DNA from: Gillisia limnaea DSM 15749
GTDB lineage: Bacteria; Bacteroidota; Bacteroidia; Flavobacteriales; Flavobacteriaceae
Reading direction: 5' to 3'
NCBI RefSeq assembly: GCF_000243235.1
Contig: NZ_JH594606.1
Span: 2,027,448 to 2,091,447 of the forward strand
DNA: 64,000 nt
A program made the translations under genes and the position numbers. The notes below the pieces were generated by a model. The model was not told the DNA's origin. It worked only from the letters and a program-made list of their open reading frames with translations, and made no database searches. Below are positions 3,593-32,707 of the stretch, piece after piece; within the stretch, counting starts at the first letter, position 1; each line of letters begins with the position of its first letter.

Positions 3593-3612
3593 CTCCCGGT
3601 AGCTATCGGGAG
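3593..3612. repeat. Dispersed palindrome CTCCC(G)..ATCGGGAG in pgi leader
   Basis: A 20-bp near-perfect palindrome, CTCCCGGTAGCTATCGGGAG, 24 bases upstream of the pgi start. Closely related palindromes occur in the window at 22269, 22408, 22548, 23066, 29336 and 32688. Here it is followed by TGCTAAAACAATAA, a 3' flank also present in the leaders at 29336, 32688 and 59641. Confidence 0.8.
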
Positions 3613-20784: not shown

Positions 20785-22101
20785 ATGGATCCATTTTTAA
20801 TAAAAGCCATACAATTATTGCTCAGTTTGTCCCTGCTGATTGTTTTACACGAATTAGGACATTTTATACCTGCCAAATTATTTAAAACCCGGGTTGAAAA
20901 ATTCTATTTATTTTTTGATGTAAAATTTGCCCTTTTCAAGAAGAAAATAGGTGGAACCGAATATGGAATTGGATGGTTGCCCCTTGGAGGTTATGTGAAA
21001 ATATCCGGGATGATCGATGAGAGCATGGACAGGGAACAAATGGCAAAACCACCGGAACCCTGGGAATTTCGAAGCAAACCAGCCTGGCAGCGACTAATAA
21101 TTATGCTTGGTGGAGTTACCGTGAATTTGGTGCTGGGATTTGTCATTTACATGATGGTATTGTTTGTTTGGGGGAGCTCTTTTGTGACTCCTGAAGATAT
21201 GCCGCGCGGATTTGCAGTGGCTGAAGAATTCAAGGAATTTGGATTTCAGGATGGAGACAGGATTTTAGAAGTTAATGGACAGGAATTTGAAAATAGTCTG
21301 GATATAAACCGCCACCTTTTTATGCGGGATGTTAATTCTATTACGGTTTTACATCAGGACGGAACAGAAGAAACGGTTTCTGTCCCAGCAGAAATAGGTT
21401 CCAAAATGTTTGAAGAAGGGGTAATGCAGCCGTTCATTCCTATACAAAATGCTGTGTTGGATAGTGTACTTTTGGAGAAAAGCGCCGGAATAGCCGGATT
21501 GCAGAAGGGCGATAGTATTATTTCTTTTAATGATCAGGAAATAGGATATTGGCATGAACTATCTCCCTTATCTCAGGAAGCTAAAAACAAAGAGGTAGAA
21601 TTGGTGTTTAAAAGAGGTGATAAGATTAAAAGTGTGAAAGTAACCCCGGATGAAGAAGGATTGATAGGAGTGACATCAAAAAGAGATTTCAACGTTCAAT
21701 CCCGGGAATATGGGTTTTCCGAGAGCATTACCGAAGGATTTAAATTTGGTTACTGGACCCTTCATGATTATGTAGCTCAATTCAAATATGTATTCACTGC
21801 CAAAGGAGCAACCCAGGTTGGTGGATTTGGAGCTATAGGAAGTATATTTCCCGATGCCTGGAACTGGCAGGGATTCTGGATGGCAACTGCATTTATTTCT
21901 ATCATTCTGGCCTTTATGAACATTTTGCCAATTCCTGCTTTGGATGGGGGACATGTTGTATTTTTGATGTACGAGATCATCTCCGGAAAAAAACCAAACG
22001 AGAAATTTATGGAATATGCCCAAATGGTTGGATTTTTTATCCTGATTGCGCTGGTTTTATTTGCAAACGGGAATGACATATATCGCTGGTTATTTGAGTA
22101 A
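20785..22101 (+). CDS. rseP: RIP metalloprotease RseP (site-2 protease)
   Basis: 438 residues. HELGH at 22-26 within the first membrane helix gives the zinc site, NILPIPALDGGHV near residue 385 gives the LDG motif with the third ligand, and two PDZ domains lie between (about 125-290). Four helices in total. It cuts anti-sigma factors and leftover signal peptides inside the inner membrane, typically to release an ECF sigma factor. No rseA/rpoE pair lies nearby. It is divergent from the SCO gene. Confidence 0.96.
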   Translation: MDPFLIKAIQLLLSLSLLIVLHELGHFIPAKLFKTRVEKFYLFFDVKFALFKKKIGGTEYGIGWLPLGGYVKISGMIDESMDREQMAKPPEPWEFRSKPAWQRLIIMLGGVTVNLVLGFVIYMMVLFVWGSSFVTPEDMPRGFAVAEEFKEFGFQDGDRILEVNGQEFENSLDINRHLFMRDVNSITVLHQDGTEETVSVPAEIGSKMFEEGVMQPFIPIQNAVLDSVLLEKSAGIAGLQKGDSIISFNDQEIGYWHELSPLSQEAKNKEVELVFKRGDKIKSVKVTPDEEGLIGVTSKRDFNVQSREYGFSESITEGFKFGYWTLHDYVAQFKYVFTAKGATQVGGFGAIGSIFPDAWNWQGFWMATAFISIILAFMNILPIPALDGGHVVFLMYEIISGKKPNEKFMEYAQMVGFFILIALVLFANGNDIYRWLFE

Positions 22102-22167
22102 TAGAAAAAAATAGTTTGGAGTCTGATTTTTTATATAAAATTTACTCAAAAAAATTCTGTTTTTGTT

Positions 22168-22198
22168 TTGAAGTCATTTAAAAAATGACATATATTTG
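22168..22198 (+). promoter_or_regulatory. Promoter of the tRNA-Asn array
   Basis: TTG (22168-22170), a 20-bp spacer and TATATTTG (22191-22198) fit the Bacteroidetes consensus well. It lies 26 bp upstream of the first, damaged tRNA copy, so the three damaged copies and the intact tRNA are probably on one transcript. Confidence 0.75.
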
Positions 22199-22223
22199 CA
22201 ACCGCAAAAGAGAAATGCGAAAT

Positions 22224-22310
22224 TCCTCCTTAGCTCAGCTGGTTAGAGCATCTGACTGTTAAAGAGAGTCCCGATAGCTATCGGGATTGGTTCGAGCCGG
22301 GGAGGGAAGT
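22224..22310 (+). pseudogene. Damaged tRNA-Asn copy 1 carrying a palindrome
   Basis: The first 39 bases are identical to the intact tRNA-Asn at 22643 (acceptor 5' strand, D arm, anticodon arm 5' side and GTT anticodon). After the anticodon the 3' strand of the anticodon stem is AGAGA rather than TCAGA, and TCCCGATAGCTATCGGGA (22269-22286) replaces the variable region and 5' T-stem. TTCGAGC of the T loop is kept, but its stem cannot form, and the acceptor 3' strand is altered (GGAGGGA). Confidence 0.85.
22269..22286. repeat. Palindrome TCCCGATAGCTATCGGGA inside tRNA copy 1
   Basis: A perfect 18-bp palindrome of the same family as the one in the pgi leader. Copies 2, 3 and 5 of the tRNA carry CCCCGATAGCTATCGGGG at the equivalent point. 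Confidence 0.85.
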
Positions 22311-22362
22311 AAAAAAATTAAGGGTAGTGTCCTTTTAAAAGAATCACTAATTTTATTGAGAT
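22311..22362 (+). repeat. Spacer of the tandem tRNA unit, first of three
   Basis: AAGGGTAGTGTCC..., repeated at 22450-22502 and 22590-22642, makes a 139-140-bp tandem unit together with the damaged tRNA. Each spacer contains TAGTG...CACTA flanking CTTTTAAAAG (CTTTCAAAAG in units 2 and 3), a possible hairpin. Confidence 0.8.
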
Positions 22363-22449
22363 TCCTCCTTAGCTCAGCTGGTTAGAGCATCTGACTGTTA
22401 ATGAGAGCCCCGATAGCTATCGGGGTTGGTTCGAGCCGGGGAGGGAAGT
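22363..22449 (+). pseudogene. Damaged tRNA-Asn copy 2 carrying a palindrome
   Basis: Same design as copy 1: intact 5' half through the GTT anticodon, then TGAGA instead of TCAGA, then CCCCGATAGCTATCGGGG (22408-22425) in place of the variable/T-stem region. The altered T and acceptor 3' strands would not form a normal cloverleaf. Confidence 0.85.
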
Positions 22450-22502
22450 AAAAAATTTAAGGGTAGTGTCCTTTCAAAAGAATCACTAATTTTATTGAAA
22501 AT

Positions 22503-22589
22503 TCCTCCTTAGCTCAGCTGGTTAGAGCATCTGACTGTTGATGAGAGCCCCGATAGCTATCGGGGTTGGTTCGAGCCGGGGAGGGAAGT
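22503..22589 (+). pseudogene. Damaged tRNA-Asn copy 3 carrying a palindrome
   Basis: Differs from copy 2 by one base after the anticodon (GTTGA instead of GTTAA). The palindrome is at 22548-22565. Near identity of units 2 and 3 shows a recent tandem duplication. Confidence 0.85.
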
Positions 22590-22642
22590 AAAAAATTTAA
22601 GGGTAGTGTCCTTTCAAAAGAATCACTAATTTTATTGAAAAT

Positions 22643-22716
22643 TCCTCCTTAGCTCAGCTGGTTAGAGCATCTGACTGTTAATCAGAGGGTCCTTGGTTCG
22701 AGCCCAAGAGGGGGAG
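22643..22716 (+). tRNA. tRNA-Asn (GTT), intact
   Basis: A complete cloverleaf: acceptor TCCTCCT/AGGGGGA, D stem GCTC/GAGC, anticodon stem TCTGA/TCAGA with loop CTGTTAA (anticodon GTT), variable GGGTC, T stem CTTGG/CCAAG with loop TTCGAGC, discriminator G. CCA is not encoded. It is the fourth copy of a tandem array and the only sound one. It would share the promoter at 22168 and end at the hairpin at 22721. Confidence 0.97.
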
Positions 22717-22720
22717 CAAA

Positions 22721-22754
22721 AAGCCTGACAGAGATGTCGGGCTTTCTTGTTTTA
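22721..22754 (+). terminator. Terminator after tRNA-Asn
   Basis: AGCCTGACA (22722-22730) pairs with TGTCGGGCT (22735-22743, one G-T pair) around GAGA, followed by TTCTTGTTTT. An identical copy lies at 23126-23158. Confidence 0.9.
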
Positions 22755-22764
22755 CTACGTTACT

Positions 22765-23052
22765 ATGAATAAGGATTGTGTTTATATTTTATTTTCCGAA
22801 AAACTGGACCGATTTTATATCGGTTCCACATCAGATTTTGATGTAAGGATGGATTTTCATCGTAATTCTGAGGCAAGAAAATTTACAGCAAAAGCAGATG
22901 ATTGGGTAATCTTTGATAAAATAAACTGTGAAAGTAATAAGCAGGCTCTATCGATTGAAAAACATATAAAGTCAATGAAGAGTAGAATCTATATCAAAAA
23001 TATTAAGCTATATCCTGAGATGAAAGATAAGCTAAAGGCAAAATTTAAATGA
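22765..23052 (+). CDS. Small GIY-YIG nuclease-domain protein
   Basis: 95 residues from the ATG at 22765 (MNKDCVYILFSEKL; the in-frame ATG at 22747 falls in the tRNA terminator). CVYIL and FYIGST give the GIY..YIG motif, VRMDFHRN provides the conserved Arg/His region, and the Glu in SIEKHIKSM is a candidate metal ligand. This is the single-domain type common in Bacteroidetes, function unknown. Its stop codon TGA is also the first three bases of a second tRNA-Asn fragment. The first 137 bp of the gene plus the upstream terminator are duplicated 405 bp downstream. Confidence 0.88.
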   Translation: MNKDCVYILFSEKLDRFYIGSTSDFDVRMDFHRNSEARKFTAKADDWVIFDKINCESNKQALSIEKHIKSMKSRIYIKNIKLYPEMKDKLKAKFK

Positions 23053-23121
23053 CTGTTAATCAGAGCCCCGATAGCTATCGGGGTTGGTTCGAGCCCATCC
23101 CGACATGGATCGGGAGGGGAG
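23050..23121 (+). pseudogene. tRNA-Asn 3' fragment with two palindromes
   Basis: Begins TGACTGTTAATCAGA (anticodon arm with GTT) directly at the GIY-YIG stop codon. It continues with CCCCGATAGCTATCGGGG (23066-23083) in the variable region, GGTTCGAGCCC, then a second palindromic piece ATCCCGA..TCGGGA where the intact gene has AAG, and ends AGGGGAG. No 5' half is present. Confidence 0.85.
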
Positions 23122-23125
23122 CAAA

Positions 23126-23158
23126 AAGCCTGACAGAGATGTCGGGCTTTCTTGTTTT
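23126..23158 (+). terminator. Duplicate of the tRNA-Asn terminator
   Basis: Identical to 22721-22754 in stem and loop; part of a roughly 188-bp duplication with one mismatch. Confidence 0.85.
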
Positions 23159-23169
23159 ACTACATTACT

Positions 23170-23313
23170 ATGAATAAGGATTGTGTTTATATTTTATTTT
23201 CCGAAAAACTGGACCGATTTTATATCGGTTCCACATCAGATTTTGATGTAAGGATGGATTTTCATCGTAATTCTGAGGCAAGAAAATTTACAGCAAAAGC
23301 AGATGAAGGGTAG
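23170..23313 (+). pseudogene. Truncated duplicate of the GIY-YIG gene
   Basis: The first 45 codons match the gene at 22765, then the sequence changes to GAAGGGTAG and stops after 47 residues. The YIG motif is present, but the C-terminal half with the candidate Glu is missing. Confidence 0.88.
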
Positions 23314-23355
23314 CGTTTATATTTTATTTTCCGAAAAATTGGATCCATTTTATAG
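23311..23355 (+). pseudogene. Third, short GIY-YIG fragment
   Basis: GTTTATATTTTATTTTCCG and following bases repeat the GIY segment (VYILFSEKLD) with a few changes, then diverge. It is the third nested copy of the same gene start. Confidence 0.75.
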
Positions 23356-23388
23356 GATCAAGTATGATAGAGGTCTGTTTCATTTGCG

Positions 23389-24975
23389 CTATTCATTTTT
23401 CCTGAATAGTGCCAGGTGTTGAATGATAGTCCTGCTTTCCAGTCCTCCTGCCAGAGCACCGGTAGTTACACCAACTGTGCTTATGAAAACTGCGATCCTG
23501 ATCTTATCTTCCAATAAAATTTCCGGTTTGCTTAAAGTTGGCCAGGTGCGCATAAGATCTTCCGGGAAAACATATAATTCAATAACCATCATCAATGCAC
23601 CTACCATGAGAAAAAGCCCAATGCAGGCCAGGAAAATGCTGAAATAGATAACGGTGTTGGCCACGGCTAGATGTTCAGTAATAATCCTTTTCTCCCTTTT
23701 CGGAAGAAACAGGGATTGGACCCGCACCAGGTAAAAGCTTGCTAACATGATGCTTATAACCGCAAAAAATGCAGCAGTTCCATTTGTCATTCCTAAACCC
23801 ACATCCCAGATCTCTGCATTGAAAATTAGGATTATTGCGGGCGCTACCGCGGCAGTAGCTAGCCCCGGCAAGGAAAGTGGCAGTAGTAATGCTTTGTTCC
23901 TTATCAACGGCCAAAAGAAATTCCCAGGATGGCTAAAGGTCATCAGGATATGGAAAACGAAGGTTTCAAGATCATTTCCATTTCTCAACTCTCTGTCTGG
24001 AGCCTTCTTTGCTTTTTTCCTAAGTACTTGTTTTTCTTTTGGAGAAAAAGAAGGAACTTTTGATAATGACCTGTTGAATTTTTTGGAACTCATAACTCCC
24101 GGTTTGGTTGCAGGAGTATGCTTCAATCCCAAAATATGTCCCGTTTGATGAAGAAAGAGGGAAGCCGATTGGTAACGAACATCTTCACAATCTAAATCCA
24201 GCCTTTCCTGGTTCTTCCCGGTAGAAGTTAGTTGCTTTGTGGACATTGCAATGATCCTGGTGATCAATGAACTAAGACCCGATACCTGAATATTTCCCCT
24301 TGACATAAGGCCAACATCTGTAATTACACAAACAAGATCATAAGGACCTACTGCCATACTCATACTTGCCCGGTCAAGGAAATAAGATGGGCTTCTTGAG
24401 CGGTCATTCTCCAGTTTAAAAATGTCCGAAATATCAAAATTCCAATTAATCCCTGTACTTTCTTCCAGCTCCGGTTTTACATCTTCAGCAAGTTGGCGGG
24501 CATATTTGATCATTTTATCTTTTTCTTCCAGATTCTTTACCGCAATCAAAAATCCCACATCCATCTCTGCATTGGGCTGGGGTCCCTGTGCTTTTTCTAA
24601 TGCCCCAAAGAATCTTTTTCCTGAAGTAATCGCCCGTATGATCTTTGTAGAATTTATAACCCTTACCGTACTTAATATTCTCAATGCTTTAAATATTCTA
24701 AAAACCCGAAGGGCAGGTATTATTAGCGAAATTATGGTGATCCAATTCTGTTTTATGAACTGAAGTCTTCGGGGAGCTATTATAAATTTAATTAAAAATT
24801 CGAGGATAAAGAGAATCCATATAACGTATATGAGCTTTTCTTCAAATGGGCTTAGCCCTCTAAAAATTTCTATAATAAATAGAATTAACCACCCAATCGC
24901 CAGTAGGAACATCGGGATTTCAAGATGTTCCTCAAGCTTATAGAATATTCTGTATCGTTTTCGGTTTATTCTCAA
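23389..24975 (-). CDS. Membrane protein with voltage-sensor-like N-terminus and metzincin-like domain
   Basis: 528 residues. Helices at about 21-38, 48-66 and 78-89 lead into an S4-like segment with R90, R93, K96, R99 and R105 at three-residue or longer spacing. No pore helix or TVGYG filter follows. Residues 137-310 contain YDLVCVITDVGLMSRG and HQTGHILGLKH (H276, H280, H286), a metzincin zinc motif in which the catalytic Glu is Gln277, plus a possible Met-turn PGVMS (M295). Four more helices fill 355-520. The start is TTG; the next in-frame ATG (residue 22) would cut the first helix. I know no named family with this order. It could be a metal or voltage sensor, or an inactive protease; function unknown. 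Confidence 0.72.
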   Translation of the reverse strand: MRINRKRYRIFYKLEEHLEIPMFLLAIGWLILFIIEIFRGLSPFEEKLIYVIWILFILEFLIKFIIAPRRLQFIKQNWITIISLIIPALRVFRIFKALRILSTVRVINSTKIIRAITSGKRFFGALEKAQGPQPNAEMDVGFLIAVKNLEEKDKMIKYARQLAEDVKPELEESTGINWNFDISDIFKLENDRSRSPSYFLDRASMSMAVGPYDLVCVITDVGLMSRGNIQVSGLSSLITRIIAMSTKQLTSTGKNQERLDLDCEDVRYQSASLFLHQTGHILGLKHTPATKPGVMSSKKFNRSLSKVPSFSPKEKQVLRKKAKKAPDRELRNGNDLETFVFHILMTFSHPGNFFWPLIRNKALLLPLSLPGLATAAVAPAIILIFNAEIWDVGLGMTNGTAAFFAVISIMLASFYLVRVQSLFLPKREKRIITEHLAVANTVIYFSIFLACIGLFLMVGALMMVIELYVFPEDLMRTWPTLSKPEILLEDKIRIAVFISTVGVTTGALAGGLESRTIIQHLALFRKNE

Positions 24976-32687: not shown

Positions 32688-32707
32688 CTCCAGATAGCTA
32701 TCGGGAG
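32688..32707. repeat. Dispersed palindrome in the HGQPGH lipoprotein leader
   Basis: CTCCAGATAGCTATCGGGAG on the plus strand; read on the minus strand it is followed by ACCGCTAAAAAACAATAAA and then the start codon. The region from about 32660 to 32765 aligns with the leader of tadA at 61597-61690. Confidence 0.8.

Follow-up and report, generated by a model that had tools for sequence, protein, structure and literature searches.

What has become of a tRNA gene that is present in four tandem copies, three of which carry a palindrome inside the tRNA itself? The question is raised by a locus in the window, by which we mean the whole stretch of 64,000 nucleotides analysed here. The palindrome, CCCGATAGCTATCGGG, is referred to below as P, and the features from the promoter-like motif to the first terminator-like hairpin are these:

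22167..22198, plus strand: promoter-like motif TTTG-N20-TATATTTG, 5' of the array and of the intact tRNA
22223..22361, plus strand: unit 1, broken copy of tRNA-Asn (P at 22270-22285); unmatched by the Rfam tRNA model up to E 1
22362..22501, plus strand: unit 2, broken copy of tRNA-Asn (P at 22409-22424); Rfam 20.4 bits against a cut-off of 29
22502..22641, plus strand: unit 3, broken copy of tRNA-Asn (P at 22549-22564); Rfam 18.5 bits against a cut-off of 29
22643..22717, plus strand: intact tRNA-Asn(GTT); Rfam 65.3 bits; the only sound tRNA-Asn found in the genome
22718..22749, plus strand: terminator-like hairpin T1 after the intact tRNA, read from the sequence; repeated after a partial tRNA copy farther on

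An earlier note on this DNA had described three tandem P-bearing units followed by an intact tRNA-Asn, and this description is confirmed by the repeat finder TRF, by the exact sites of P and by Rfam. The repeat array covers 22220-22687 with a period of 140, 3.3 copies and 96% matches, and it comprises three units of 139-140 bp each, followed by the one sound gene. Exact copies of P begin at 22270, 22409 and 22549 (a spacing of 139 and 140) and again at 23067, and none is expected by chance (none in 100 shuffles). In each unit the 5' half of the tRNA is retained, and P replaces the variable loop together with the first bases of the T stem. The note's single promoter ahead of the array is likewise upheld: TTTG-N20-TATATTTG is the sole motif of its kind in 22000-22800, and a similar motif was seen by eye 5' of tRNA-Asn in sister genomes. 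Since the units sit 3' of this one promoter motif, their transcription from it is plausible.

It is important to establish whether the units are still tRNA genes. A census of the tRNA loci extracted from the genome gave 44 ARAGORN calls, three of them tRNA-Asn; two of these three are units 2 and 3, which leaves the intact gene as the one sound tRNA-Asn that the census detected. ARAGORN thus accepts units 2 and 3 as 86-nt tRNA-Asn genes, and the status of the units as 'broken' therefore rests on the covariance model, by which none of copies 1-3 scores as a sound tRNA (cut-off 29 bits). The units diverge from the intact gene at the anticodon stem and have lost the T stem. The suggestion that their stems pair poorly survives in part, in that the T arm is absent from the predicted fold but the ends still pair over 8 bp; the predicted fold is a weak judge, since even the intact gene is not predicted to fold into a cloverleaf. 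Dead copies were one of the outcomes that the earlier note considered, and this outcome agrees with two scores below the Rfam cut-off, with unit 1 going unreported, and with the absence of the units from 12 sister loci. The P-bearing units that separate the promoter motif from the one sound tRNA-Asn are most likely non-functional.

The opposite view, that the units work as decoy or regulatory RNAs made from the tRNA 5' half, could draw on the promoter motif that stands ahead of all of them, and on their folding, which is better than that of shuffled sequences (z of -3.2 to -3.4, compared with -0.7 for the intact gene), although P alone may cause this. Against it stand the absence of the array from 12 of 12 sister loci, the altered anticodon stem and missing T stem, and the fact that arrays at other tRNAs mostly repeat 3' ends only. 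We regard such a function as very unlikely, and nothing was found that speaks for the decoy RNAs or 5'-half fragments proposed in the earlier note.

The account in that note did not include what lies immediately downstream, namely a nuclease ORF and a further partial copy of the tRNA:

22765..23052, plus strand: GIY-YIG nuclease ORF, 95 aa (Pfam PF01541, E 1.8e-11; model pLDDT 94.5)
23051..23122, plus strand: partial copy of tRNA-Asn containing P (23067-23082) and another hairpin (23098-23115); overlaps the stop codon of the ORF
23123..23154, plus strand: terminator-like hairpin T2, a second copy with the same sequence as T1 here; also read from the sequence
23170..23313, plus strand: second copy of the GIY-YIG ORF, truncated; matches the family and the A2 profile

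The ORF starts 47 bp 3' of the intact tRNA-Asn. The partial copy begins at about tRNA position 31, and P is placed in it as in the units. The units share their 5' half with the intact gene and the stretch from P to the T loop with this downstream partial copy; their simplest origin would be a chimeric upstream copy of tRNA-Asn that was amplified later. Because T1 and T2 are identical in the window, a replacement of the tRNA 3' end cannot be shown there, and we return to this point with other loci below.

The PF01541 match places a GIY-YIG catalytic domain in the window ORF. Across 37 aligned sequences Y7, Y18, G20, H32 and E65, which by I-TevI we take to be active-site positions, are invariant, and R28 and N79 are conserved at 90% or more. 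The structural neighbours of the protein are UPF0213, Slx1, the UvrC N-domain and I-TevI, with weak E values (best 0.018) and a TM of about 0.5. In eight of the nine closest ORF pairs dN/dS lies between 0.07 and 0.31, and in the closest pair it is 0.72; the median over 1026 pairs, many of them near saturation, is 0.34. Carriage of the element by viruses was considered and rejected: the window protein had no match at E 1e-8 in 50,697 phage records, and in viral_contigs 126 stretches that fitted the search pattern yielded no confirmed relative, nor did viral_contigs contain a match to P plus T loop.

How does the same site look in other genomes of the genus? We compared twelve sister tRNA-Asn loci by eye, leaving out G008, G013 and G014, and the three-unit array, with or without P, was found in none of them. 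Two genomes (G004 and G006) have the ORF with a P-bearing partial copy 3' of it, a third (G001) has a P-bearing relic without the ORF, eight have neither, and one locus is cut by a contig end. With the window's own genome included (n=13), this one homologous site therefore holds the ORF in three genomes, a relic in one and neither in eight, with one cut. An extra upstream copy of tRNA-Asn does occur in the genus, since G012, G002 and G004 each hold two intact tRNA-Asn in tandem.

In order to ask how general this arrangement is, we scanned genome_contigs (one genome per species, 84,980 species), using five aligned ORFs that are linked to tRNAs as the query. The scan confirmed 255 relatives, and the best 80 were kept; by their titles, 79 of these best 80 come from Bacteroidota groups and one from a Rickettsiales MAG. 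A tRNA lies within 300 bp of the ORF in 60 of the 80, always on the same strand (60/60): Asn at 34 loci, Met at 15, Leu at 4, Phe at 3, Thr at 2, and Gly and Val at one each. Another 3 of the 80 have a tRNA within 500 bp. Among the remaining 17, tRNA- or P-like sequence surrounds the ORF in 13, several of these at contig ends, and L188 has the P motif only; around the ORFs of L143, L156 and L171, the last cut at its contig start, neither tRNA sequence nor the P motif was found. Some matches labelled tRNA-Asn 48-63 are P itself, since P-bearing copies stood among the queries.

Where a tRNA lies within 500 bp upstream, a partial copy of the same tRNA follows the ORF in 49 of 57 loci (E up to 0.01), and in the other eight no partial copy was found after it. 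The usual anatomy is thus an intact tRNA, a terminator, the ORF, a partial copy of the same tRNA that usually contains P, and a terminator. There is also a rarer mirror form, in which the ORF lies 5' of an intact tRNA and a 5' piece of the tRNA precedes the ORF (L165, L190, L199 and L202, four of seven loci examined). The locus in the window is one member of this family, whose small GIY-YIG nuclease elements reside in the tRNA genes of many Bacteroidota. Within the family the kind of tRNA tracks the nuclease tree (14 changes, as compared with a shuffled mean of 27.8, and none of 200 shuffles as low), in a tree of 97 columns that leaves 38 of 82 inner branches open and in which Asn is confounded with Flavobacteriales. 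A Leu-rich clade covers three orders. The tree excludes L180 and L190, whose ORFs are under 80 aa, and labels L178 as Gly despite a tRNA-Asn that is also upstream of it.

Several further GIY-YIG loci came to our attention. At L108 (G009, tRNA-Pro), three 110-bp units lie ahead of an intact tRNA-Pro, each combining a TCCCGCTGCGGCGGGA hairpin with the 5' part of that tRNA, and a GIY-YIG ORF lies 5' of the units; the layout parallels the window array with a different hairpin. At L097, L111 and L114 the 3' end of a GIY-YIG frame enters the 5' end of tRNA-Arg or tRNA-Pro, and the start of the tRNA therefore encodes the last residues of the protein. GIY-YIG ORFs away from tRNAs (L069-L107) often lie, as judged by eye, amid interspersed inverted motifs such as CTCGAGCGGAGTCGAGAGG. 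Counted with 3 of 23 loci left unscored, the enrichment of hairpins flanking such ORFs is weak (hairpins in 6 of 39 flanks and in 8 of 203 control windows; p 0.013).

Several arrays repeat about positions 58-76 of the tRNA, which is the usual attachment block of integrating islands. One might read the partial copies as scars left at the attachment sites of ordinary islands that a tyrosine recombinase inserts into tRNA genes. The sister genome G003 (L050, 1804 onward), one of the eight without the element, lends this some substance: an integrase-like ORF with Pfam matches to Arm-DNA-bind_5 and Phage_int_SAM_5 lies ~230 bp 3' of the same tRNA-Asn, at the site that the GIY-YIG element occupies in other sister genomes. 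The tRNA-Asn gene may thus be host to ordinary islands as well. However, no integrase-like ORF was seen by eye in the window between the array and the next genes, the break points lie within the variable loop, the anticodon loop or the D loop, and the mirror form repeats tRNA 5' ends. As an explanation of the partial copies we hold attachment scars to be highly improbable.

We now turn to the palindrome. P has the look of a stem with a 4-nt loop. Three base pairs that lie outside the search motif covary, changing on either side yet remaining complementary, and are Watson-Crick in 70, 69 and 71 of 72 hairpins (14-base core), and the two central pairs hold in 52 and 53 of the 72; these 72 are sequences and not independent events, given that several loci contribute two and that at least two of them are terminators (L170 and the second of L189). 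The commonest place of P in tRNA-Asn is 45|51, where 14 of 40 mapped hairpins stand exactly. Elsewhere it lies in the anticodon loop of some Met loci (L170, L184 and L185), and in Phe loci in the D loop (L180) or the T region (L196 and L203).

The genome that holds the window has 12 exact P sites, of which eight are at tRNA loci (Asn 4, Phe 2, Thr 2; the Phe and Thr pairs lie 3' of tRNA-Phe and tRNA-Thr) and four are elsewhere. That the palindrome is a dispersed element, as claimed in the earlier note, is accordingly true but incomplete, for it is also at home in tRNA copies adjoining GIY-YIG ORFs. Versions of P with one mismatch also occur in the window, at 3595-3610 and 32690-32705.

Partial tRNA copies lie within 1.5 kb of 12 of the 44 tRNA calls in this genome. 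These 12 calls correspond to nine loci (Thr, Phe, Gly, Ile, Lys, Pro, Asn, Arg and Leu), counting the three Asn calls as one and the two Lys calls as one. Not all nine carry P; by eye, Gly and Ile have another hairpin. At the tRNA-Ile locus (L133:5827-6154) four ~63 bp units lie 3' of the tRNA, each of which contains a CCCGAGCGAAGTCGAGGG-type hairpin as well as the 3' end of the tRNA, and the units then run into a stretch of N near rRNA-like sequence.

The sites away from tRNAs raise the concern that P is dispersed independently of the nuclease, as a hairpin similar to REPs or to the Rickettsia palindromes, and has settled in dispensable tRNA copies, the ORF being a bystander. The window's own genome has the four such sites; G032 has 37 forward matches to P, counted irrespective of their surroundings, and 2 A2-type ORFs. 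Among 59 genomes, P and an A2-type ORF occur together in 6, P alone in 3, the ORF alone in 8 and neither in 42; that is, the searched type of P is absent from 8 of 14 genomes with the ORF, and the ORF from 3 of 9 genomes with P. For the co-occurrence a one-sided Fisher test gives 0.0037 (0.0105 without the window's own genome), but we do not lean on this test, because kinship confounds it and because the number of P does not follow the number of ORFs.

Another comparison that bears on the bystander reading is made at the loci themselves. A P-type motif, CCGA-N4-7-TCGG, lies within 125 bp 3' of the ORF in 54 of 78 loci, as opposed to 14 of 1778 control windows from the same loci; L169 and L201, with too little sequence 3' of the ORF, are left out of the count. 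The motif is present in 41 of the 56 loci with a tRNA upstream. A hairpin that had merely drifted into spare tRNA copies would fit poorly with this proximity and with its recurrent place at 45|51, and we think it unlikely that the ORF is a bystander.

An origin of P from the RAYT/REP system was rejected, since in the window's own genome none of 11 matches to PF01797 (Y1_Tnp) lies within 5 kb of a listed P site. The same search over 18 genomes, several of them fragmented, showed no P-adjacent match in the others among the matches listed. The window's own genome has seven Y1 transposase ORFs of 172 aa and equal score, which are probably one IS200-like element present seven times.

What the identical T1 and T2 of the window conceal can be sought in loci where the two differ. 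We classed 22 Flavobacterium loci, restricted to those with two tRNA-Asn 30-45 bp apart; the assignment of this locus group (g2) to Flavobacterium is our inference, for example from sequence shared by L246 and L138. In six of the 22, it is T2 that immediately follows the last intact tRNA, and up to 1.5 kb of sequence showed no P motif; no ORF was found in these six by a pattern able to miss some. In another 12, T1 follows the last intact tRNA, and 11 of these 12 have the ORF or P-bearing remains; T2 lies farther downstream in seven of the 12. The other four have other terminators. These counts must be read with the choice of loci in mind, in that 12 of the 22, including nine of the 12 T1 loci, were chosen by the ORF and the other 10 by a query that holds T2; shared 60-mers reveal near kin among the 22, no two records being identical.

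The contrast is clearest between two near kin, L164 with the element and L243 without it. Their T2 sequences are nearly alike, and T2 stands after the broken piece in L164 and after the intact tRNA in L243. Because T2 follows the tRNA in element-free loci and stands farther on in loci with the element, the element seems to come with a tRNA 3' end and terminator of its own, pushing the resident pair downstream. Within the limits of locus choice we conclude that a terminator swap has occurred in Flavobacterium. Identity of T1 and T2 is rejected as a general rule: the two are at least 80% alike in only 13 of 37 loci and not in the other 24, as are 12 of 1332 cross pairs. Where they are alike, as in the window, this fits a local duplication or conversion.

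We consider it probable that the locus harbours a homing-type GIY-YIG element, one that rebuilds the tRNA gene in which it lands, and that the upstream units are an amplified P-bearing copy of the tRNA. In such a scheme the nuclease would break an element-free copy of its own tRNA gene, and repair would copy the element in, with the shared tRNA sequence serving as homology on both sides. The element would provide a fresh tRNA 3' end and terminator, which would keep the tRNA functional, and the resident 3' end would be pushed downstream with P at the break. P might either only inactivate the target in the broken copy or itself be recognised by the nuclease. Repeated breaks and repair would amplify the tRNA-P units in tandem, as phage SegB does for a phage tRNA segment. 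The cutting of the tRNA gene, the spread by repair, the role of P as lock or recognition site, and amplification as the origin of the units are the parts of this scheme that we infer. One point against it is that the intact tRNA would stay a target.

A related but doubtful possibility is that the GIY-YIG nuclease and P form a two-part mobile system. Here a single-domain, Slx1-like nuclease would recognise folded DNA, be it that of the hairpin or of the tRNA cloverleaf; P would spread in Bacteroidota as REPs are spread by RAYTs; tRNA genes would be the home sites; and P-tRNA arrays without an ORF would be non-autonomous copies. That 8 of 14 genomes with the ORF lack the searched P, and the way in which the T1/T2 loci were chosen, count slightly against both the homing element and the two-part system and in favour of a bystander ORF.

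If the homing element is real, it would explain the recurring partial tRNA copies and hairpins in Bacteroidota genomes, and its targets would be tRNA genes, which can be present as a sole copy. It also lends itself to direct tests, namely of the target rule, of whether nuclease groups are loyal to one kind of tRNA, and of the hairpin at the break.

Two known systems resemble parts of what we describe. The tyrT repeats of E. coli, which give rise to rtT RNA, lie in tandem behind a tRNA gene, and every repeat carries the 3' end of that tRNA; in this respect they are like the tRNA arrays described here. A match to Rfam rtT was absent up to E 1 in 21000-24000, and we know of no nuclease ORF at the tyrT repeats. 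REP hairpins with their RAYT transposases likewise couple a short hairpin, dispersed over the host genome, to a nuclease encoded there. Their partner is a Y1 protein, whereas here it would be GIY-YIG, the 11 Y1_Tnp matches in the window's own genome all being more than 5 kb from the listed P sites. The Rickettsia palindromic elements are a sequence family of Rickettsia, often found in reading frames.

No earlier description of GIY-YIG elements with palindromes in bacterial tRNA genes was found among the matches listed from the open-licence literature. Two further systems offer parallels. In fungal mitochondrial mORFs, found for example in atp6, atp9, cox2 and nad3 of Glomus sp. and in atp6 of Allomyces, a LAGLIDADG endonuclease ORF (GIY-YIG in atp9) lies in a gene and supplies it with a new 3' end, the native end is displaced downstream, and the hybrid gene is expressed (PMC3630166). 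The likeness to mORFs lies in the Flavobacterium loci: in seven of these the intact tRNA is followed by T1, and T2 comes only later, whereas in the six element-free ones T2 follows the tRNA directly. The differences are that here the host is a bacterial tRNA gene, the ORF has about 95 aa, and the displaced piece bears a conserved hairpin. In T-even phages, SegB is a free-standing GIY-YIG nuclease beside tRNA genes, which amplifies a tRNA-gene segment in tandem through breaks and recombination (PMC13096335). SegB is phage-borne, and the text consulted on it mentions neither a hairpin like P nor a displaced piece of tRNA (PMC13096335). By analogy, the present elements would work like mORFs and SegB together, and, if the homing reading is true, would constitute a bacterial chromosomal counterpart of the mitochondrial endonuclease elements that swap the 3' ends of genes. 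What sets them apart from mORFs and SegB is residence in bacterial tRNA genes, together with the hairpin P.
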